Virus record (IMG/VR): IMGVR_UViG_3300043449_002292
Coordinates: 62,001 to 126,000 of that record
Strand: one strand, 5' to 3'
Length of the DNA: 64,000 nt
DNA from: a virus
The notes below the pieces were generated by a model. It had not been told where the DNA came from. It ran no database searches and worked only from the letters and a program-made list of their open reading frames with translations. This document shows positions 32,415 to 62,900 of the stretch, one piece after another; the stretch's first letter is position 1, and each line of letters starts with the position of its first letter. The translations under genes were made by a program, and so were the position numbers.

Positions 32415-33623
32415 TCAGACGAAGGAGGAAATCAGCATCCGACGACCACCACGATTCATACTGTCCATCAGGTGATGGGCTGCCGAGAACTGATACATCT
32501 CAACGGCGAGCTTACGCATCTCGCTCTCATACAGGGCGGCCCTTCGAGCACGTATCCTGGACTCCGACATCGTCTTCGCACCTGCTGGCGCAGCAGGACG
32601 AATCGCAGCTGCCGCCCCAGCGGTCGCTGCCGACGCTTTAGCAAGGCCACGGGAGGCTGCGTCCAGGGCGTTCGCGATCATGGTGCGAACAGCATTAGCG
32701 GCTTTACCTGCAAGACCGATAAGAAAATCTATGAAGGATATGAAAGCCATTCCCGTCATGATAGCGCCCACACCGACCGCAGTCAAGAGAGTTTCCACTG
32801 CAGCCACAGCACTTTTGAGCGTGTTCTTTATGAAGTTTAGAACCTCCTGAAGACCTGCTTTCATGGCACTTTGAACGTTGGTTACAAAGTTTGCCCATGC
32901 CGTGCCCATGGCGTCCTTAAAAATTTTCAGGTTGCAGTCTGTCGCAAACTTCTGTTTCGCCCGAAGCTGATCATTTATCAATGTGCTAAGAGCAGAGAAC
33001 GTTCCTGCGAGGGCCTCAATCGCTCCCTCGGACAATCCTGCGGTGAACGCGGCGCCCGCCATGCGAGCGGCAGTCTGGAGAGCGCCCGTGAGTCCACCCT
33101 GTCCGCCAGCCGTGCGTAAACTGCTCGCCATCTTGGAGAAGGTGCTGGCAGTCGCTTCCTGTATTCTCTCGGTTGCGATCAGCTCTGCTGTCACAGCTCC
33201 CACCCTTCCTGCCAGTCCGACCGCGGCGAGGGCGTCGGGTAGACTCTTCACAAAAACTTCGATTCTACAGGCGTCGTCCACACCTGGACGGCCCGGGACG
33301 TCAGGGCTCGGAGGGGCACCGCCACCGCCAGCCGCAGCGGGCTTATTCTTCAGCTGGGCAGCGACAGCCATGATGGCCGTGGCAGCCTTCGATCCGGCGG
33401 CAACGGGCTTCAGCGGCTGACCTAGCTTCGCTGTCTGAACCGCGTTGGTGCTGATATCGGCGCTGTAGCTGTAGGTGGCATCCTGCCACGTGACCACGTT
33501 ACCGGCGACCTTCACATTCTTTGCCTCCGCAGCTTGAGCAGCAGTGGAAGCCTGCTCCATGAGGTATGATCTCCTCATCTCCTGGTTGACGATGGCACGA
33601 AGCTGTGACTCAGTTATCCTCAT
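32415..33623 (-). CDS. Ala-rich protein with capsid-targeting-like leader, probable internal virion protein
   Basis: This 402-residue protein is not a known family. The first 25 residues (ITESQLRAIVNQEMRRSYLM) form an amphipathic leader shared in style with three other phage proteins, followed by L-M-E, a candidate gp21 protease site. The rest is alanine-rich and helical. Hydrophobic stretches (for example VGAIMTGMAFISFIDFLIGL around residues 290-310) could insert into membrane. A proline-rich linker lies near residue 105. Located between the nucleotidyltransferase module and the neck block. A protein packaged with the DNA and delivered into the host or its membrane would explain both leader and hydrophobic helices; this is a hypothesis. 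Confidence 0.75.
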   Translation of the reverse strand: MRITESQLRAIVNQEMRRSYLMEQASTAAQAAEAKNVKVAGNVVTWQDATYSYSADISTNAVQTAKLGQPLKPVAAGSKAATAIMAVAAQLKNKPAAAGGGGAPPSPDVPGRPGVDDACRIEVFVKSLPDALAAVGLAGRVGAVTAELIATERIQEATASTFSKMASSLRTAGGQGGLTGALQTAARMAGAAFTAGLSEGAIEALAGTFSALSTLINDQLRAKQKFATDCNLKIFKDAMGTAWANFVTNVQSAMKAGLQEVLNFIKNTLKSAVAAVETLLTAVGVGAIMTGMAFISFIDFLIGLAGKAANAVRTMIANALDAASRGLAKASAATAGAAAAIRPAAPAGAKTMSESRIRARRAALYESEMRKLAVEMYQFSAAHHLMDSMNRGGRRMLISSFV

Positions 33624-33639
33624 TTTATCTCCTAAAATC

Positions 33640-35412
33640 TTATCTATCTACGAGAATATGCTCAAGCAGCGATTTTAGCAGGATTCTCCTGCCATCTTGG
33701 ATATCACCGCGTTCCCCTTTAACTATTCCCCAGTACATGTTTTTCATCTCCTGGTTCAGGTTTTTTGGAACGTAGCTATCGAATGATGACTTATCACCAG
33801 CCGCGATGAATCCACGCATCATGGTTCCTGAGATCTGCGTGGTTTCCGACCTTGGAACTGCGACCTGCTGGAACTTCTCCAGCACGGCAGGATCTTTGAT
33901 CGTGCTCCTCATCTTGGCAGGGGAGTACTTGACTTTCGCATCCTCAACATCGGAGTAGAAGATGAAGCGACTGACGATGCCCTTCAGGTCTCGCATCTTG
34001 TTCACCGCAATATCGAGCGGTGACTCCTGGCTGATGATGAGCGTCGCGTTTGGAAAGTCCTTGTGAAACTGTGGCTCCAGCACCGACTTCCAGGCATCGA
34101 TCATGACACCGGCTGGCAGCTCATCCCTTCCTGCGATCGATGTGATGATGAGAGCCTCGTCGCACTCACTCGCGACCCGACCGATCATCTTCCAGTGACC
34201 GTCATGAACCGGTTTACCCGCGAGGACGAAGATACCGACAGTGATCCCATTCCTGTCACCGATCTCGACTCGCTTCATGATCCTCGTCTTCGTTGTCAGG
34301 AACAGGTCCTCCTGCCGCTGTATCAGCTCCTTCTTCCGGTGGAAGAGACGACCCAGCCTGTTCGAGATCGCCGCATCGAAGTAGCACTCGTTATGGATCC
34401 GCTCCAGCAAATCGTTCATCTCGGACTCCTTGATGTTACGATTCTGGGCTGGAGCAAACTCAGCGACAATCTCATCCGCGATGGTGATGATCGAACTCCA
34501 GTAGGCCTGCTCGATCGGAGGCGTTTCCCGGAACTTATCTTTCACAGCTCCGCGGGTGGTCTCATCATGTTGGTCGGGGTTTAGGGCCTTGTAAAGAGCC
34601 CTCGTGGTCGATGTCCTCATCACGACGCCCTCGGCTGGGGACAGATCCGTCTCCGTCGAGAGAGAGGTCTTGAACTCCGAGAACACCTTGTAGATCACAT
34701 CGATGATACGAAGGGGACGATCCGGTGAGCGATCGTTGTATGCATCGTTGAGTGAGCTGAACACTTCATTGAAACGACGCTCGATCGCCTTGTTCCTGAT
34801 GCCCGCCCTGAAATCATTGATGCTGGAGAGCTTCCCGTCGAACATCACTGGATACGTTTTCACCCCTAGCAGCCGAGCGTATCGCTCCAGCATGTCATCA
34901 TCATCGACAGGTGTCATGTTGCTGACGAGATGGGTTCCAGTGAGCTTGTAGTGGCATGGTCCGAAGAGCGTCAGGAAGATCCCATGCTTCTGGGGGTAAT
35001 CACGGGTGATTGTCGCCTTGCGTTGCACGAACTCGAGGAAGAACTCGGTTCCCTGTGGAATCTCCGCGGTCTGATGATGCATCCGCTCAAGCAGGGAATG
35101 AACGAGAGCATACTGCGCCGTTCCCGCCGAGTGCGCTCGGATCTCCTCCTCACGCTTTCCGAGTCCACGAATCTCACTTGGAAAGATCAGGTTACCCCTG
35201 TAGGCAACGTGCCAGTTCTTCGCGTAATCGTTCGGATCGAACTCGTTGTTGCGACGGATGAGGGTAAGCTTCGTTCCGTCGATCTTCTCAACTATCCTGA
35301 CGTTATCATCGAGAAACTGCCTTGCCTTGCGACGATCATTCTCACGCTCGCGTGGGGTAGCATCATCGCGGATCATGACCTTCCTAAGGTCCTTGATGGA
35401 GATGTCGGCCAT
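33640..35412 (-). CDS. RNA-ligase-like nucleotidyltransferase fused to NMNAT-type adenylyltransferase
   Basis: A 590-residue two-domain enzyme. Residues 1-300 carry ligase-superfamily motifs. Motif I is EKIDGTKL with nucleophile Lys 43. The motif III region is FFLEFVQ through KHGIFLTLF (125-150), motif IV is AEGVVMR (260-266), and motif V is LYKALN with Lys 275. Residues 388-560 form an HxGH-type nucleotidyltransferase. HDGH at 403-406 follows FVLAGKPV, and ISGTMMR at 527-533 is followed by AAGDKSSFDSYVP, as in NMN or related adenylyltransferases. A helical linker separates them. Both domains keep their catalytic residues, so the protein could both make and use adenylylated intermediates. Likely themes are RNA or tRNA repair and NAD metabolism; the substrate is unknown. 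It lies 4 nt after a Pol-beta-fold NTase gene. A good GGAGAT precedes the next gene. Confidence 0.85.
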   Translation of the reverse strand: MADISIKDLRKVMIRDDATPRERENDRRKARQFLDDNVRIVEKIDGTKLTLIRRNNEFDPNDYAKNWHVAYRGNLIFPSEIRGLGKREEEIRAHSAGTAQYALVHSLLERMHHQTAEIPQGTEFFLEFVQRKATITRDYPQKHGIFLTLFGPCHYKLTGTHLVSNMTPVDDDDMLERYARLLGVKTYPVMFDGKLSSINDFRAGIRNKAIERRFNEVFSSLNDAYNDRSPDRPLRIIDVIYKVFSEFKTSLSTETDLSPAEGVVMRTSTTRALYKALNPDQHDETTRGAVKDKFRETPPIEQAYWSSIITIADEIVAEFAPAQNRNIKESEMNDLLERIHNECYFDAAISNRLGRLFHRKKELIQRQEDLFLTTKTRIMKRVEIGDRNGITVGIFVLAGKPVHDGHWKMIGRVASECDEALIITSIAGRDELPAGVMIDAWKSVLEPQFHKDFPNATLIISQESPLDIAVNKMRDLKGIVSRFIFYSDVEDAKVKYSPAKMRSTIKDPAVLEKFQQVAVPRSETTQISGTMMRGFIAAGDKSSFDSYVPKNLNQEMKNMYWGIVKGERGDIQDGRRILLKSLLEHILVDR

Positions 35413-35416
35413 CAGA

Positions 35417-36946
35417 TCACCCCAGCATCATGTTAACAAGACGATTGATCCGACGGCGAGTCGACTCATCGACCCCAACGTCTTCTGTGTCCTCGATGAA
35501 CCCCTTCTGTCCGCGCACCGTGTACTTATCATAGAACTCTTTCTTCATCGCCTCCACATCCATCGTTGATGCATCAGCGTCAGGCAGGGCATTCTTGAAA
35601 GTTTCGATGATAGCTTCCTTCACACTCTTATCCTCTTGTGGGTCGGTGGCTGATATCTTCTGGGCACGGCGTCCGTAGAGCCTGATCACCAGCTCCTCGT
35701 ATACTTTGACGATCTCAGGAGGTGAGAACCTCTCCTTCATCAGGTCAAGAATACCAACGAAGGACTGGAAGTCCTCCAATTCCCTCTCTGTGGGCTCCGA
35801 CTCGCTCCCGAACAGTGACTTAAAGATCTGCTTGACGATCCGAATCGCACCAGAGCGCTCGGATCGTTTGAGGTACTTGTACACCTCATCACCATTATAA
35901 GTCCAGTCAAGCTTTTTGTATCGTTCCCCTAGTCCAGTTACAAGATCCACTGACAGCAGGGAACGTAAGCGGACAGGTCTCATTGAAGCGGCCTTGATCT
36001 CACGCTTCACCTGCGTGAGAGCCTGTGCGTATGCAGACTCAGGTTTCTTCTTGGGGAAGTCCCTGAGGATCTTTTTCATCTCCTCCTGCGCGCGGGCCTC
36101 GATCTCCTCATCGGTCGGGGACACAAAATCAGGATCCTTCGTCATGCTGATCCCAGGATCCTCAGCGGTCGCTGACGGTGTCGCAAGACGCGCGTTGATC
36201 GGCATGGGCGACCTGATGGTGGCGATCGACATCAGGATCATCTTGTGGGCGAGTCCCTTGACGCCAGCCTCGATATCACGCCATGATGATGAGTGCGAGA
36301 ATCGTGCCCACTCGGAGGGCTTCCCACCTTCATACTCCGATGATTCGAAATCGATCTGGAAGAAGGTATCACCCTCACCCGGAGAAGCCGCAGGATCCCA
36401 GGTGTAGGCGAAGAGAGCATTCATCTGATCCGTGCCGGGAGAGTGCTTATTATGCCCGATGTACGCGATGCGATCCGTGAGCGACTGATCCTCAAGGCGT
36501 GTGAGGGTTGCGAAGAGCTCCTCCGCCCTCTCCTCCGGGATCGTGAGGTCGATATCGCCCACCGTGGGCTTGAACTTGATGAACCTCTCATCGGGCATCT
36601 TCTCGCGTGGAGCGAAGAGGTGGGCGGAGGAGCCGTTGAACGCGAAGCCCGTCCCGAGGATCTCATCGCGGGTTTCAGGATCCCAGAGCGGATGACCATG
36701 ATCACGTTTGAAACGATCGTCGAGCGCCACGAGCGCCTTGATCACCTCACGTCGGAAGTCCTCCCTCGTGATGCGACCGCCCTTCAGATCGATCTTCTCG
36801 GCATAAGCTTCCTTACCACGAAAGGTCTTCACCCGCTCTGGGCTGATGACTCGACCTGTCTCCGGATCACGAACGAGAGCTCGGGTGTTGCCACCCTCGA
36901 CAAGCCCATCATACGATCCAAAGATAAAATTGGCGATGCTGAACAT
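35417..36946 (-). CDS. Pol-beta-fold nucleotidyltransferase
   Basis: A 509-residue protein with the minimal catalytic pattern of the Pol-beta/MNT nucleotidyltransferase superfamily. A Gly-Ser turn lies in FAFNGSSAHLF (105-107). The metal-binding pair is VGDIDLTIP (Asp 131 and Asp 133), and a third acid lies in FFQIDFES (Asp 199). The region that follows (ARFSHSSSWRDIEAGVKGLA) is a helical part often involved in substrate contacts. The C-terminal half is helical and charged and is not recognised. It could transfer NMP to RNA, protein or a small molecule. The intimate pairing with the ligase-NMNAT fusion (5-nt gap) argues for one pathway. A hairpin sits upstream at 36982-37028. Confidence 0.75.
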   Translation of the reverse strand: MFSIANFIFGSYDGLVEGGNTRALVRDPETGRVISPERVKTFRGKEAYAEKIDLKGGRITREDFRREVIKALVALDDRFKRDHGHPLWDPETRDEILGTGFAFNGSSAHLFAPREKMPDERFIKFKPTVGDIDLTIPEERAEELFATLTRLEDQSLTDRIAYIGHNKHSPGTDQMNALFAYTWDPAASPGEGDTFFQIDFESSEYEGGKPSEWARFSHSSSWRDIEAGVKGLAHKMILMSIATIRSPMPINARLATPSATAEDPGISMTKDPDFVSPTDEEIEARAQEEMKKILRDFPKKKPESAYAQALTQVKREIKAASMRPVRLRSLLSVDLVTGLGERYKKLDWTYNGDEVYKYLKRSERSGAIRIVKQIFKSLFGSESEPTERELEDFQSFVGILDLMKERFSPPEIVKVYEELVIRLYGRRAQKISATDPQEDKSVKEAIIETFKNALPDADASTMDVEAMKKEFYDKYTVRGQKGFIEDTEDVGVDESTRRRINRLVNMMLG

Positions 36947-36981
36947 TTAGCCTTCGCTTCTCCGTATGAATACATATAGCG

Positions 36982-37028
36982 CTCAACGGCAAGCAGGTCA
37001 TCATCTACTGAGCCCGCTTACCGTTGAG
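36982..37028 (-). other. Long-stem hairpin upstream of the nucleotidyltransferase module
   Basis: CTCAACGG pairs with CCGTTGAG (8 bp). The pairing continues after one C-A mismatch with AAGC/GCTT, leaving a 21-nt loop. It lies in the 105-nt gap between the decoration-like gene and the NTase gene. There is no T run after it on the minus strand, so it is not a typical terminator. It may be a processing or attenuation structure. Confidence 0.5.
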
Positions 37029-37051
37029 TTGTATCTCTGAGCCGAGCTGTA

Positions 37052-43452: not shown

Positions 43453-44067
43453 TTACTTCTTCCATGTTAGAATATCGTTGAATATTCTATCGATCCGATC
43501 GCTTCGATTAAATGTTCTTGAGAGTTCGTTCTGCTTTACCTGACGACCTTCACGCATCATGAAAGCGCCGGGGGTTGAAGGTTCGGACACGAAATCCCAG
43601 CAGATGAGCTGAAAGTCGTCCTGAACGATCTGATGCTCGCCTGACTTCCGGGTTGAACCGACGCCTCGTGAGGAGATACCGAGCGTGACCCCAGCCTCGA
43701 CGAGGCTCTGAAGTATCTTGCCGCAGGGGGTGTCGAGTATCTCGACGGTCCCGTAGCAGACGTTGCCCTCCATGTAGGCTTCACGGACGATGTGGCTCAC
43801 CTTCTTCAGCTCAACGACAGAGGAGTCCGGATGATCACATTCACCCAACGCGCGACTCTCACGAATGAACTTCTGGTAGTTGCGAACCTCTCGCTCCAGG
43901 ATATCCTTTGGATAAACGCGACCGTTCTGGTTCAGGGTCTCCGCCTTCTGGAGGATACCTTTCATGATGAGTTTACCACCGTTCTGATCGCGGCTCTCCT
44001 TGACCATCTTGGAATCATAGGAGAACGGAGCCCACTCGGTGAGCAGCATTAGGGATCTATCACTCAT
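43453..44067 (-). CDS. Prohead maturation protease, T4 gp21-like
   Basis: A serine protease that matures the prohead by cutting core and shell proteins. The 204-residue protein (T4 gp21 has 212) has the herpesvirus-protease-like triad region. The His is in GECDHPDSS (His 79), and the Ser is in TLGISSRGVGS (Ser 132/133). The typical N-terminal segment LQKAETLNQNGRVYPKDILE is also present. It lies between the portal-linked gene and head core genes, the same context as T4 20-67-68-21. Overlap by 8 nt with the upstream gene suggests coupling. Confidence 0.95.
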   Translation of the reverse strand: MSDRSLMLLTEWAPFSYDSKMVKESRDQNGGKLIMKGILQKAETLNQNGRVYPKDILEREVRNYQKFIRESRALGECDHPDSSVVELKKVSHIVREAYMEGNVCYGTVEILDTPCGKILQSLVEAGVTLGISSRGVGSTRKSGEHQIVQDDFQLICWDFVSEPSTPGAFMMREGRQVKQNELSRTFNRSDRIDRIFNDILTWKK

Positions 44068-48828: not shown

Positions 48829-49110
48829 CTAAATATGCACCCTCGAGTGAGGCGACGCTAGTCTCTTCGCGACGACCTCAGAAATCTTAGCTGGATCTGG
48901 TCTCCATCCTTCTAACCACGACTTCCTGTTAGTATCTACGATTTCATTTTCACAATCGAAGCAAGCACCGCATCTCGACAGAGAAATCGTATCTATCTCA
49001 TCTATTGAAACACATCCGCAAATCAAGCACGAGATTGGAACTGATTCTCCCTTGGCATCTCCCCTCTTAACGATACGATACCCATTTTTCAGCTCAACTT
49101 CCTTCTTCAT
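48829..49110 (-). CDS. Zinc-ribbon-like small protein
   Basis: A 93-residue protein with two cysteine clusters, SCLICGC and RCGACFDC, about 17 residues apart, a spacing suited to one zinc ribbon. The C-terminal region (KSWLEGWRPDPAKISEVVAK) is helical. It starts at an ATG sharing one base with the stop of the gp47-gp46 fusion gene (TAATG). A DNA- or protein-binding accessory of the recombination block is possible; the function is unknown. Confidence 0.65.
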   Translation of the reverse strand: MKKEVELKNGYRIVKRGDAKGESVPISCLICGCVSIDEIDTISLSRCGACFDCENEIVDTNRKSWLEGWRPDPAKISEVVAKRLASPHSRVHI

Positions 49111-52100
49111 TAATACCTCACCCTTGCGTCGATACCATCGTGAGAGATCTCGATCACGTTATCTACAATGTCCTTTATGCTGTCGACGTGGGAGATGACA
49201 AGCATGTTCTTGAAGTTACGCTTGAGTGACGTCAGCAATCTAGCGCATGCCTCGAGGTTGGTGTCATCCAGGGCGCCAAAGCCCTCGTCTATGATGAAAA
49301 GATCAGGCTTAGGAATCGCGGAAACTTCGATCAGGGCGGTTCTGATCGCAAGTGAGGAGATCATCTTCTCCATTCCCGACGCAAGCTCGATCGGTCGTTT
49401 GGAGTCCCCGTAGTCAATGAAGATCTCGAGATCGCCGTCCTCCTCATTAGCCAGGAGCTCAACGTTGAAATTGGCCACGCCGGTTAGGACCTTGGCAATC
49501 TCCTGATTGATCCGCGGGAGCTGGGAAGCGATGATCTGCAGTGGGATGCCATCCTTACCCGTAGCGGACAGGATGGTCTCATAGATCTTCCAGTCAGCCT
49601 GCAGCTTCTCGATCCGAGCTATGTCCTGCTTAAGACGAGTGATTTCAGATCCGATGGCACCGATACGCTGGTTATCCTTCAGGATTCTCTTCGAAATCTC
49701 GGTTGCCTTTCTCTCCTGCTCGTCAACCTCGAGCTGCATCGTCTTTACCTGCTCAAGGGCTGATACCGAAATCGCAGCGCGAATCTCCTGTAACAATTTG
49801 TTCACTCTCTGCGACTCCTGCTCATGAGACTCTACGAGAGACTCCAAAGTCTTCACCCGACTCTCATGGGCCGCGTGGGATGTCTTCATGGATGGCAGCT
49901 TCGACTGTAGGGAGCTTAGCTTCTCGAACCGCTCCTTCATCTCCCTCAGGTTCTCAGAATCAAAGCTCTGCTTCAGCTCATCGATTGTCGTGGCTATCTC
50001 GTCAAGGACTGCCTTGTGAGCAGGTATCAGCAGCTTGTCAGCGTGTGAATCCTTGATGTATTTGCAGGTTGGGAACTTGTCGCCGCAGGGAACATCCGAC
50101 AGCTTGCTCACTGATCGTTCCAAGCGCTGTAACGCGTCAGACTCATTTTTAAGCTTCGTCTGAGCCTCTCCAATCTTGCTAGAGACACGCTCCGATCGAT
50201 CGATGTCAGCTTTCAATGACGAGATGTCTGACTTTTCGAAAACCTCATCAACCTTCTGGATCTTTCGCTGCAGCTCGTCACGCTCCTCAATCGCCTGCGC
50301 CAGCTCATTCTTGGCTCGCTTGATCTTAGACTCGAGAGTTACAAGTTCTGACTCGTAATTCTTGATATCGTCAAGCGTATGTGAGGATCCGGGAGATTCA
50401 CGTTCCAGTATCGCTCGAAGCTTCTTCACATGGGATTCTATGGAGAGCTTCTCATTCTCGAGGATTGCCACCTCATCGTGAAGGTTCTTCTCCTCGATTT
50501 CCTTCGACTCGATGGAAGCGCGTAGATCCAAGGCAGGGGTGCGCTTCAACTCGGACTTGATGGAGCTTGACGCTTCCTTGGCGAGCAGGTTCAGGGAATC
50601 AAAAACCTGCAGGTTCAGGAACTTCGAGAGTATGTTCTTGCGTGCGGTGGCACGCTCCTTCAGGAAGGTGTTCATCTCCCCCTGCGCCGCGAATGACGTG
50701 AGCAGGAAATCGTCCGAGGTTCCGATGAGGGAACGGAGCACCTTATCGGAATCCTTGCGCTGCTCTCCCGAGATATCCTCAACTGGCTTACCGTCCGCGT
50801 CGATCTTGAAAAGGTTGAGGTGGGTGACGGCGTGCTGTAGACCTGCTTTCGTCTGGTGCTTCACAGATTGGCGCTCTGACATGTAGGTGTCATTTCCAGC
50901 TTGAAATTCCACAGCCGCCTTACAGTAGTCCTTCCTTGTATTGATGATGTGAAGGTTCTTGATCGGCCCACGATCGGTCGTATTGAATAGGGAATACATG
51001 ATCGTACCAGGGATCGATGACTTACCTTGAGCATTTCGACCGAAGATGCCTGTGATACCGCTCAGGTTCTCGAAATCGATCTCATTCTCCGTCCCGTAGG
51101 AGTAGGTGTTATCCCACTTGATCTTCTTGATCGACCACTTGACATCGCCCAACCTCTCATCGGCTGGTAGGGATTCGATGAGCTTCGACACGGTGGATTC
51201 CAGCTTCATGAGAGAGTCACCTGATACTCCTTTGGATTCAGCGTAACTCCTGAACAATCCCTTGATGGTTGTGGGGTCACGAAGGTTCTCACGTGAGAGT
51301 GTGGTTGAACCCGCCCGCATCTCCTCCTTCACCTGCTCACCAACGAACTTCCAGACGACCTCTGTCGCTGACATCTTTTTACGAAGCTCGCCAGCAAGCT
51401 GTCTGGACTCGGATATAACGATGTCCTCGCTGTTCAGAACCCTGAACCTGGACCCTCTGGGTAGCTTCTCGCAAACCTGCATCGTGGACGAGACGTCACC
51501 CTGCCATTCAACGGTCTGGAATGGGCGTGGATTCTTCAGCTTAATGAAGTTGACCCGATAATCTTCCCGACCCTTGATCTGCCAGAAGAGAAACCCCTTC
51601 TCGGTGTCCTCACCGTAGTTCTGCTGCACGGTGGAGCCCGGATAGGCGATCCTGGTGTCTCCATCGAGGAACTGCCGACGGTGGATATCTCCGAGGAGAG
51701 TGAAATCGTAAGGTCGAAACATGTCGACCGTCACCTCACCCTCGATGGGCATGCCAGTATCGAGGAGGGAACCTCCTACCGCTCCGTGGTAGAGGGCGAT
51801 GTTGATCAGGTTGGGATCATCGCTCGGGTTGCACTTACCCCAGTTCTCCTCATCGAAGCATGAAAAGTTAGCGAAGTTGATTCCATTGATCTCGTAGTTT
51901 CCCGAGTCCTTCAGGAAGTGGATATTATGATGATCAAGTGCAGAGATAATGGGAGAGATCGCATCAAGACGGGACTTATTATGGATGAGGCCGTCATGAT
52001 TGCCGAGAATAACAACGGTGGGCCAGTTCGAAAGCTTCTGAAACCACCAACGGAGACGATCCACGAGCTCCGGGGTGATGCCTTGCGTCTTCGAGTGGAC

Positions 52101-52238
52101 GATGTCGCCACCGACGACGATCATGTCTGGATGGAGCTCATCGAGCTTCCTGAAGAAATCCTCGAACACCTCGGTGTATTCATCATGACGCTGCAGGCCG
52201 CGCCAGTGGATGTCGGCAATATGTGCGATCTTGATCAA
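49110..52238 (-). CDS. Single-chain recombination nuclease: gp47 (SbcD/Mre11) fused to gp46 (SbcC/Rad50)
   Basis: Resects DNA ends for recombination-dependent replication. Residues 1-230 are a complete metallophosphatase. They contain ADIHW (Asp 9, His 11), GGDIVHS (Asp 45), GNHDG (Asn 80, His 81), YHGAV (His 151) and GDIHRR (183-186). Residues 230-370 match a Mre11 capping region. From about 370 the chain is an SMC/Rad50-type ATPase. It has Walker A GRNAQGKSS (400-408), a long coiled coil, a Zn-hook-like PCGDKFPTCKYI at about 710-720, the ABC signature ELASGMEKMIS, and Walker B FIIDEGFGALDD. In T4 the two parts are separate proteins of 339 and 560 residues. I see no stop or frameshift at the join. 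It overlaps the primase gene by 4 nt. Confidence 0.93.
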   Translation of the reverse strand: MIKIAHIADIHWRGLQRHDEYTEVFEDFFRKLDELHPDMIVVGGDIVHSKTQGITPELVDRLRWWFQKLSNWPTVVILGNHDGLIHNKSRLDAISPIISALDHHNIHFLKDSGNYEINGINFANFSCFDEENWGKCNPSDDPNLINIALYHGAVGGSLLDTGMPIEGEVTVDMFRPYDFTLLGDIHRRQFLDGDTRIAYPGSTVQQNYGEDTEKGFLFWQIKGREDYRVNFIKLKNPRPFQTVEWQGDVSSTMQVCEKLPRGSRFRVLNSEDIVISESRQLAGELRKKMSATEVVWKFVGEQVKEEMRAGSTTLSRENLRDPTTIKGLFRSYAESKGVSGDSLMKLESTVSKLIESLPADERLGDVKWSIKKIKWDNTYSYGTENEIDFENLSGITGIFGRNAQGKSSIPGTIMYSLFNTTDRGPIKNLHIINTRKDYCKAAVEFQAGNDTYMSERQSVKHQTKAGLQHAVTHLNLFKIDADGKPVEDISGEQRKDSDKVLRSLIGTSDDFLLTSFAAQGEMNTFLKERATARKNILSKFLNLQVFDSLNLLAKEASSSIKSELKRTPALDLRASIESKEIEEKNLHDEVAILENEKLSIESHVKKLRAILERESPGSSHTLDDIKNYESELVTLESKIKRAKNELAQAIEERDELQRKIQKVDEVFEKSDISSLKADIDRSERVSSKIGEAQTKLKNESDALQRLERSVSKLSDVPCGDKFPTCKYIKDSHADKLLIPAHKAVLDEIATTIDELKQSFDSENLREMKERFEKLSSLQSKLPSMKTSHAAHESRVKTLESLVESHEQESQRVNKLLQEIRAAISVSALEQVKTMQLEVDEQERKATEISKRILKDNQRIGAIGSEITRLKQDIARIEKLQADWKIYETILSATGKDGIPLQIIASQLPRINQEIAKVLTGVANFNVELLANEEDGDLEIFIDYGDSKRPIELASGMEKMISSLAIRTALIEVSAIPKPDLFIIDEGFGALDDTNLEACARLLTSLKRNFKNMLVISHVDSIKDIVDNVIEISHDGIDARVRY

Positions 52239-59958: not shown

Positions 59959-62900
59959 CTAATACATGCTAGCTAGGTGAAGTGAAGCTTGGCAGCAGAC
60001 ATTTCCGATAGATACACCGCCATTTATCGGGTCGCGATTGATGACGATAGAAATTTCACCAGAATCAGACACTTCCACCCAACCCTTTTCGATCAGGGAT
60101 GTAACCATATCTGTAGCGAGACCCCCACTGTCTGTTTCACTACGCCCCAGATCGATCTTGAATTCGTCCAGGTCGAAAGGGATCAGGAAGACCCTATCAA
60201 AATTTGACGGGAGTATCGCTCTATTGAGAACTGTGTCGTTTCTCATTAAGAACGAAGACGAAATTGCGTCGATAAGCTCCTTGTCTCCTGTCGTTATGCC
60301 CTCAACCTTTTTTAGATGATCAACCTCTCCGTTGCTGTTGAATATCTGATCCAACTGATCCGAGTTTGGAAGAACCAAACCTGCTAGTCCTAACGCGGAC
60401 GAAGTTTTCAGAGCAGCTCGTCCGGCATCGGAAGTAGAATCGTTAAATCTGATCGTCAGTGTTTCATCGAAAATCTTTCCACTCAGCTTGTAGAGGTAAG
60501 TCTCCATCATGTAGCTTAAAAACGTGTTTCTCACGATCTGGTCAAACTCAGTGTCAGTGATTGAGGAGTATCTCGAATCAGATTTCAAAGCGTCATATCT
60601 AAGCACCTGCTTCACGTCCCGTGAGTAAAGAACGAAGTTAGCTTTACGCGCTAGAGACGTGATGTAATCATCGGCGACAAAAGACAAACGCTCTAAATTA
60701 TTTGAGAACCCACCCGGTTGTATGAATAGTCTTGGATCAAAGATATATGTCTTCGGTGAGAAAGAAATGTCACTGAGCTCGTAATCCTTACGATGTAGAT
60801 CTATTTTAACCATACCGGAAGTTCCTGGTCGTAATGAGCTCGGCAAAAAACCTGCAGGAATTCCAACGGCAGCGATCCTGATGTTCTCTGCCTCTCTAGT
60901 CGCGAATGTTGATGACTGAAGGAGCAAATCAAAAACAGATGATTCGCTCGAATAGTAAGATGCTCTAGCTGGTACGTATCCCTTCGATGTCTGCGGCCTA
61001 TACTTATCAAGCATTGAACGACGTCGGATGATCTGCTGCGTCGTCAGATCGGACAGCATCTTGTAACCGTCCTCCGTCTTTATAACATCGCTCCTTGTTG
61101 AAGAAGAGACAAGATCGTTGGTGATGGTTACAAGCTCGTCCTTCGATTTCGAAAGCAGGCTTAAATAAGATGACATGTAGGCCGCGCTGTTTCGAACCTT
61201 TTCGTGCCTACCCATCAACGTGACAAAAGCGCTATAGGGTTCTGCATATGATGAGGGGGCAATATCACTCGTAGCGTAGTTGTCTCCAATAACATATTCT
61301 AAACCGCTTTGTAAACTTCCAATATCTGCAAGCGAATAGCTATCGAGAGAAATACCATCCGCCATGACGTTATCTTCAACTGTTATCGGGATGTTCGTTC
61401 CTTCCGCATTTGTCTCGACGACTGTCCGTGCTTCTGTAGTTGAGACGGTTCCAGACGTTAGGAAGGGAGTTCCAAGAAGACCAGCGAGCCTCACGAAGCA
61501 TTCGACAATTAACGAGAGCAGAGCAAATTCATCCAGACCGATGTATTTTGTGTATCCTGCGCTGTTTGTAATCGTCGCATCAGCTGGTAATCTTTCAGTG
61601 GCTGCGCTCAGGATCTGGTCATATGCATTTAAGATGTAATTAAACACATTGTCGGAAGAGCTAGTCTGCACAGTTTCAAATATGCTCTTAATCGTGTTAG
61701 GGTCTGTGACAACGTTATTAGACACCGTCTGCAAAAGATCATCGATAGCTTGCTTACCTCGTAGAACAGCTTCAAACGCTTGTTTAGCGCGCTTAAATTT
61801 ATCTTTTGTAAATCTACCTTGCTGAACTGTGTCATACTCGTTTACTATTTTCTCAATGTCCGACGTCGAAGCGTTGATGATGCTATTTTTTATGCTTTCT
61901 ATGTTGCTTTCTCTAAATTTGCTCTTATCAAGATTGTGGTTGTTCGGAGTATCAACGTCAATATAAAGATCGATAAACGCTGTAAGATCATTAACGTCAA
62001 GGTCTACGATCTCTTCCGCAGCAACTTCTGCGTATTCAGCAATTGTTTGTTCAAGATCTGCGACTTGATCATAGTAAGCTGTCGCGGCACCAGAATCTCC
62101 CGTTGTGTTGAAAAATAAAAGTGCAAAAAATCCAGCTGCAACGTTCGTTTCAGTTGGTGAGTTTGATGCTCTGCGTCCAACCACACGCTCCACGACAGCA
62201 GCCGATTTATCCTCGATCTGAATCGTGGTTGGAGATGCGCTGGCTTGTAATACTGAACTGTTCTCCGAGGTTCTGGTGGTCAGTAACGTCACTTTCCCAG
62301 TCTCGCTACCTGAGGCGCCGAGGACTCCTAAGGTTTCATACCACTTTAACCTACCAACAGTTTGTAGAATGAGTTGACGTAGATTAGCGCCGTTATTTTC
62401 AAATCCTTCACCGACGTATTCAGCATCGTTATATGCTGCAAGTGTTAACGCCGCGAATTGAAATTTTGTGCTATCGGAAGCGGTCGCTGTTTTTGTCGCA
62501 TTTATGAACTGATTAACTATAATTCGAAGTATCTCAGGAGGTGAGACCTGACTGCTGGTATCGAAACGACCAGTTATATGAGTTAAGAACTTAGTTATTG
62601 TTCCAAAATTTTTTACTGTCGTTTGGCAGTATGAATCCAGGTCCGTGAAGTTGAGATCTCCCTCGGAAATTGGTTTTCTTACAAGACCTCTGGGTCCCGA
62701 AAGACATATTCGACCCGCGCCGTCGCGCACGGTTGGATCATCTGTTTCAAGTGGAAGAACGGTCTTATCGCTAAGATGATACTGCAGAAATGGAAGCGAG
62801 ATTGCTCTAGAAGCTGAAAGATCGGAGATCTTCTTATAGAATGGAAAGCCATCAGACAATTTGGTTCCGTAAAAGATCGTCACAGGGTTCGAGATATCGA

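Follow-up and report, generated by a model that had tools for sequence, protein, structure and literature searches.

A putative head-packaged set of a ligase–adenylyltransferase fusion and a Pol-beta-type nucleotidyltransferase in T4-like phages

Introduction

The closest idea in the literature is RlaP, a Pol-beta enzyme working alongside RNA ligases in jumbo phages (PMC7824862). Here we analyse two adjacent genes, P0001 and P0002, in a 64,000-nucleotide stretch of viral DNA (the window; positions 62,001 to 126,000 of the IMG/VR record IMGVR_UViG_3300043449_002292, which has 142,859 bases and is possibly incomplete). They encode a ligase–NMNAT fusion protein and a Pol-beta-type nucleotidyltransferase (NTase), which we propose are packaged in the phage head and, more tentatively, repair RNA ends. 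In both cases a Pol-beta NTase of large phages accompanies an ATP-dependent RNA ligase, and restoration of lost nucleotides before sealing is the proposed task. P0002 and its relatives differ from RlaP in having no match to PF10127; moreover, the present ligase forms one chain with a HIGH-type adenylyltransferase, and predicted head-targeting leaders are found in the set.

The ligase half of P0001 resembles T4 RNA ligase 2 (Rnl2; PF09414) in its fold and nucleotidyl-transferase motifs, but its Pfam score falls below the cut-off and it is joined to an NMNAT-type domain. The latter shares the HIGH-superfamily fold and motifs with NMNAT/PPAT enzymes (PF01467) and with the phage 'cytitidyltransferase' (phrog_395, phrog_3041). 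Whereas the stand-alone cyanophage version occurs without the NTase in the four records checked, the module is here fused to a ligase or encoded beside one.

The consensus site of the T4 prohead protease is L/I-x-E. T4 also provides the precedent for N-terminal leaders of 10-20 residues and for their role (PMC5694885, PMC9958956). The set described here has in common with T4 internal head proteins and Alt a short N-terminal leader, an (L/I/V)-x-E site and a gp21-type protease encoded in the genome; it differs in consisting of a ligase and two nucleotidyltransferases, whose place in the virion is predicted. Polyvalent injected proteins are multi-enzyme chains delivered with phage DNA (PMC5512222), and two giant chains found among our relatives, L107 and L113, look like them, although the combination of a ligase, a HIGH nucleotidyltransferase and a Pol-beta NTase does not appear in the part of that account drawn on here.

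Results and discussion

Both open reading frames (ORFs) lie on the minus strand, at the positions given in an initial annotation made from the window sequence: the P0002 gene (35417..36946, 509 aa) comes first and the P0001 gene (33640..35412, 590 aa) follows after 4 nt. That annotation described three nucleotidyl-transfer sites with intact catalytic residues in the pair, and all the motifs it named are present. The two proteins were assigned to PHROG families 27149 and 19290, both of unknown function. For P0001, the AlphaFold2 model (41 aligned rows) had a predicted local distance difference test score (pLDDT) of 92.7 and a predicted template modelling score (pTM) of 0.89. Profile searches matched phrog_27149 (2.7e-25) and PF09414 (2.2e-5), the latter with 25.1 bits against a gathering cut-off of 27; the ligase domain is thus predicted to work like Rnl2 and is, by Pfam's rule, no PF09414 member.

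The Rnl2-type ligase domain spans residues 1-385 (34258..35412) and contains the motifs K43-I-D-G, E261-G-V-V and K275, with K43 (35284-35286) as the predicted nucleotidyl lysine of the KxDG motif. Residues K43, D45, G46, E127, E261, G262 and K275 are kept in the alignment of relatives. Foldseek comparison of the model with T4 RNA ligase 2 gave E 7e-8 for 2hvr and E 6e-6 for 1s68, at a probability of 1.00. Past motif V the modelled chain is helical as far as the NMNAT part. It resembles Rnl2 in this, and the OB fold known from DNA ligases is absent.

The NMNAT/PPAT-type domain of the HIGH superfamily occupies residues 386-575 (33688..34257). Its two adenylyltransferase motifs, H403-D-G-H (34195-34206) and I527-SGT-x-x-R533 (ISGTMMR), are intact. 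A profile search matched the C-terminal half to the archaeal NMNAT 1f9a (E 1.5e-6), PPAT/NMNAT structures matched the C-terminus of the model at E ~2e-5 in Foldseek, and NCBIfam returned weak NMNAT/PPAT matches alone, all on this part of the protein. The structural comparisons thus located both the ligase fold around Lys 43 and the HxGH Rossmann-type fold that the initial annotation had anticipated. Because PPAT matches as well as NMNAT, the fold does not specify the substrate of this domain. Some distant clades carry TxGH or TxAH in place of HxGH or have lost the Arg of the SxTxxR-type motif. An earlier view of the Vibrio and Campylobacter HxGH motifs as degenerate was dropped when alignment revealed TxGH/TxAH, with Thr as in PPAT, and inactivation is not claimed. 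The same module is what cyanophage and jumbo-phage records annotate as 'cyti(ti)dyltransferase', a correspondence missed by the initial annotation. A literature search found no description of the ligase–NMNAT fusion.

One function listed in the initial annotation is NAD metabolism, in which the NMNAT domain would remake NAD+ from NMN against NAD-depleting immunity while the ligase domain used or regulated NAD-type compounds. The intact HxGH and ISGTxxR motifs and the archaeal NMNAT as closest PDB profile match favour it, and phage NAD salvage is known (PMC9503650). Unlike the NadV/NadM and NARP2-like salvage systems, however, the 143-kb record yielded no NAMPT partner (PF04095), with the proviso that it is possibly incomplete; the partners of the module are a ligase and a Pol-beta NTase, not NadV; and the equally good PPAT matches tell against a specific NMNAT assignment. 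The missing NAMPT and the steady ligase/NTase partnership therefore disfavour NAD salvage, which we regard as improbable.

P0002 gave an AlphaFold2 model with a pLDDT of 88.7 and a pTM of 0.82 and matched phrog_19290 at 7.5e-35. Its catalytic residues are G105-S-S, D131-I-D133 and D199; the G-S pair (G105-S106), the D-x-D motif and the third Asp (D199) are invariant in 46/46 aligned NTase rows. Matches to PDB structures were weak (E ~0.1), the best being TdT and small alarmone synthetases. The enzymes matched at these weak scores do belong to the Pol-beta superfamily and, with its catalytic residues invariant, P0002 is predicted to be a Pol-beta-superfamily NTase. Among viral predicted structures, clear matches (E <= 0.001) were restricted to unnamed or uncharacterised proteins. 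Identity with RlaP was ruled out, PF10127 being unmatched in 46 relatives and across the window's own record. Relative to the nearest relative, L001 (74% and 72% identity), the ratio of nonsynonymous to synonymous substitution was ~0.1 alike for the ligase, NMNAT and NTase parts, with synonymous sites near saturation, and purifying selection appears to act on all three.

Relatives were collected from IMG/VR and phage records, and profiles of the three modules were run over all ORFs; many relatives are metagenomic fragments, and statements of absence hold for the profiles and records searched. The gene pair recurs in other phage genomes in adjacent, separate or fused form. Within the window clade, every contig that shows the junction has the NTase gene directly beside the ligase–NMNAT gene, and the ligase–NMNAT fusion itself is present in all window-clade contigs and most distant relatives. 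Its recurrence in dozens of contigs means that it is no assembly error, which disposes of a scenario considered in the initial annotation (two genes in close homologues and a sequencing error in the window). Three contigs (L046, L048 and L051) encode a single chain of ~958 aa in the order ligase–NMNAT–NTase, and L107 and L113 a single giant chain in the order NTase–second ligase-like family–NMNAT; independent PHROG models find the same domains in L048 and L113, and the L113 chain carries on with a SpoT-like HD phosphohydrolase.

Separate genes occur in lineages other than the window clade: three in L092 (NTase, ligase and NMNAT) and four in Xanthomonas phage X1 and Stenotrophomonas phage Moby (NTase, unknown, ligase-like and NMNAT-like). 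Campylobacter phage CP220 has the NTase ~65 kb away from the fusion gene. Further relatives are encoded by Campylobacter phage vB_CcoM-IBB_35 (NTase AEF56792, ligase AEI88202) and by Vibrio phage Va1. All NTase-bearing records of at least 100 kb (15/15) also hold the NMNAT module and a ligase of either of two families. The second family shares the KxDG motif with the first and aligns there, with a weak profile match (E 0.0045, probability 8%), and motifs and position are the main grounds for calling it a ligase. The association does not run the other way: 525 phage records contain the NMNAT-type module by itself ('cytitidyltransferase'), and the four that were checked all lacked the NTase. Triple fusions in two domain orders, together with co-occurrence in whole records, argue that the three modules form one system with a shared pathway, as the initial annotation had supposed. 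No relative of P0001 or P0002 turned up when bacterial and archaeal genomes were scanned twice, subject to the limits of a pattern search, and a host-encoded origin was set aside on that result. PADLOC returned nothing.

The giant chains of L113 (1808-7567, 1919 aa) and L107 (975-6029, 1684 aa) begin with a leader and a GGN-type NTase and contain numerous (L/I/V)xE sites, which gives them the look of head polyproteins from which single enzymes are cut. Two further contigs carry a tandem pair of differing NTase genes, both beginning MGGN (L098:5842-8042 and L101:4770-6461).

A feature missed by the initial annotation is what appears to be a capsid-targeting-type leader with a prohead-protease site on the NTase. 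The predicted leader comprises residues 1-17 of P0002 (MFSIANFIFGSYDGLVE; 36896..36946), and cleavage before GGN would start the mature enzyme at 36887-36895. At the N-terminal end pLDDT falls below 50 over residues 1-18 only, and the model leaves the leader disordered. When each distinct sequence around GGN is counted once, 20 NTases have GGN directly after Met (nearly always the initiator Met) and 38 have a leader before it, usually of 10-17 residues. In 38/38 leaders the last residue is Glu and the third-last (P3) is Leu (21), Ile (11) or Val (6), the second-last being free. At the NMNAT/NTase junction of triple fusions L046 and L051 the sequence is LNE followed by SGQ. Each of the 11 ligases that possess a genuine N-terminal extension carries (L/I/V)-x-E a short way ahead of the conserved LDISI-type start. 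On the NTase tree the leader state changes ~7 times, at least four of these changes being forced by well-supported branches, with a conforming site each time; this count outweighs the raw 38/38, because the leader counts contain related sequences. Such a leader-and-site pattern is the one on which the T4 prohead protease acts in internal head proteins. Several clades have the leader on only one of the two partners, NTase or ligase, as expected if both enter the head as a complex.

The genomic setting agrees with this picture. The pair sits inside a T4-like head block, with a gp23-type major capsid gene upstream and a head-tail adaptor gene downstream; a few kb upstream come the genes for a portal, a large terminase and a prohead protease of the gp21 type. 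The protease (S77; 43453..44067, minus strand) is the predicted processing enzyme and matched phrog_207 at 9.7e-51 and PF03420 at 1.5e-27 in the same genome. Given a leader with a T4-type prohead-protease site and a prohead protease encoded nearby, the enzymes are probably packaged inside the phage head and leave it together with the DNA on ejection, and the place of the NTase gene in the structural block is thus probably functional, reflecting packaging. The GGN start is kept whether it is exposed by Met removal or by the protease, which a leader alone would not seem to require. A free N-terminal glycine may matter for activity.

The same observations bear on a role in head assembly, in which the enzymes would modify a structural or injected protein (by AMPylation or similar) during assembly and stay unejected. 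Pol-beta NTases can modify proteins, the window-clade pair is flanked by gp23 on one side and the head-tail adaptor gene on the other, and the strictly kept GGN terminus could serve as the modification site. In other clades, however, the genes sit among replication or nucleotide genes, and a leader-processed enzyme suits ejection better; we give this role little credence.

In several relatives the module is flanked by genes for a CCA-type tRNA nucleotidyltransferase, a calcineurin-like phosphoesterase/phosphatase or a P-loop (AAA_33) kinase, enzymes that commonly take part in the healing and sealing of RNA ends. These neighbours argue for RNA rather than DNA as substrate, as does the Rnl2 fold, in which a helical domain and not an OB fold follows motif V. 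Among the options listed in the initial annotation, RNA end repair as counter-defence is best supported. We offer, as a tentative model falling somewhat short of probable, virion-delivered repair of RNA ends, probably those of tRNAs, as a counter-defence. P0001 and P0002 would form a phage-specific three-enzyme nucleic-acid end-processing complex of an Rnl2-type RNA ligase, a HIGH-superfamily adenylyltransferase and a Pol-beta-type NTase. Late in infection the NTase, by its capsid-targeting leader, would enter the prohead and bring the ligase/adenylyltransferase along; the gp21-type protease would then cut after (L/I/V)-x-E, leaving an NTase that starts Gly-Gly-Asn. Ejected with the DNA, the complex could act ahead of phage gene expression: where host ribonuclease defences have cut RNAs, most likely tRNAs, the NTase would put back the nucleotides lost from the ends, and the ligase would seal these ends via a 5'-adenylylated intermediate. 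The adenylyltransferase may yield an App-X compound, either NAD-like or a substrate or regulator of the ligase.

Several observations weigh against this model. Its weakest link is the NMNAT-type domain, which has no obvious job in plain RNA repair. The 5' kinase and 3' phosphatase that distinguish the Pnkp/Rnl repair set lie beside the module in several relatives, but searches of the window's own record for a kinase (PF13671) and a phosphatase (PF12850) gave no match. Only ~3/12 AAA_33 and ~3/11 Metallophos_2 matches fall near the module (whole-record counts from a scan that missed divergent copies), so that kinase/phosphatase enrichment around it is no more than suggestive. P0002 also fails to join RlaP by PF10127. 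Finally, neither protein has a leader in L040-L045, L061, L091 and the Vibrio relatives, and the packaging route is therefore not universal.

The neighbouring genes and the NTase fold also admit a DNA-end module: a packaged set resembling non-homologous end joining, with a PolX-like NTase, a ligase and sometimes a nuclease-like partner, that would protect, fill and join the ends or breaks of the incoming genome. TdT, among the best though weak fold matches of the NTase, is a PolX enzyme; a neighbouring gene looks PD-(D/E)XK-like by eye in several relatives and is fused before the NTase in L095; packaging alongside the genome would fit; and the window's own record yielded no PF01068 DNA ligase. 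The Rnl2-type ligase fold without an OB domain speaks against it, as do the lack of Pfam support for the nuclease reading and of such a gene beside the module in the window, and we judge this explanation unlikely.

T4-type RNA ligases accept App-X donors. The most novel possibility is a virion-carried machine that tags RNA 3' ends: the NMNAT-type domain would make App-X from ATP, the ligase would take this as an already activated donor and join p-X (for example NMN) to the RNA 3' end, and the NTase would prepare that end. Exposure of the conserved GGN terminus, by Met removal or by the prohead protease, could then serve to switch the complex on only once the head has matured. We consider such tagging a long shot compared with RNA end repair.

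Should the packaging and repair model hold, the heads of many T4-like phages would contain a ready-made complex for nucleic-acid repair (or tagging), and the host would encounter counter-defence enzymes before phage gene expression begins, which is one step sooner than with the Pnkp/Rnl1 repair of T4 itself. The model gives PHROG families 27149 and 19290 a testable role, which may extend to the 'cytitidyltransferase' annotated in hundreds of cyanophages, and the GGN/(L/I/V)xE rule offers a simple sequence test for other packaged enzymes.

Further observations concern the surroundings of the module. The neighbouring gene seen in some relatives is of varying family (L103:4609-5928, L104:5417-6907, L105:3288-4613, L106:2189-2989, L095:4744-6080 and L020:8942-9946); several members have a head-type leader and a D...SxK-type pattern, nuclease-like by eye, and no Pfam match was obtained for them. 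In the window, the 402-aa gene beside the fusion (32415-33623) starts MRITESQLRAIV...LME, which is again of the leader type. In L011 (9533-12493, 986 aa) the counterpart of this gene is joined in frame to the ligase–NMNAT protein, whereas L001, L002, L012, L015 and L016 lack the gene. A strong RNA hairpin (36982..37028, minus strand) lies just upstream of the NTase gene, between a 156-aa ORF and the NTase start; the stretch 36950-37050 that contains it (101 bases) has a minimum free energy of about -40 kcal/mol (z -4.8). Its stem is terminator-like and has no T run, and it may be a terminator-like element or a processing site. Farther away, a single ORF of 1042 aa (49110-52238, minus strand) matches SbcD-like phrog_100 over residues 1-339 and SbcC-like phrog_77 over residues 365-1032, and looks like a fusion of the gp47 and gp46 counterparts.

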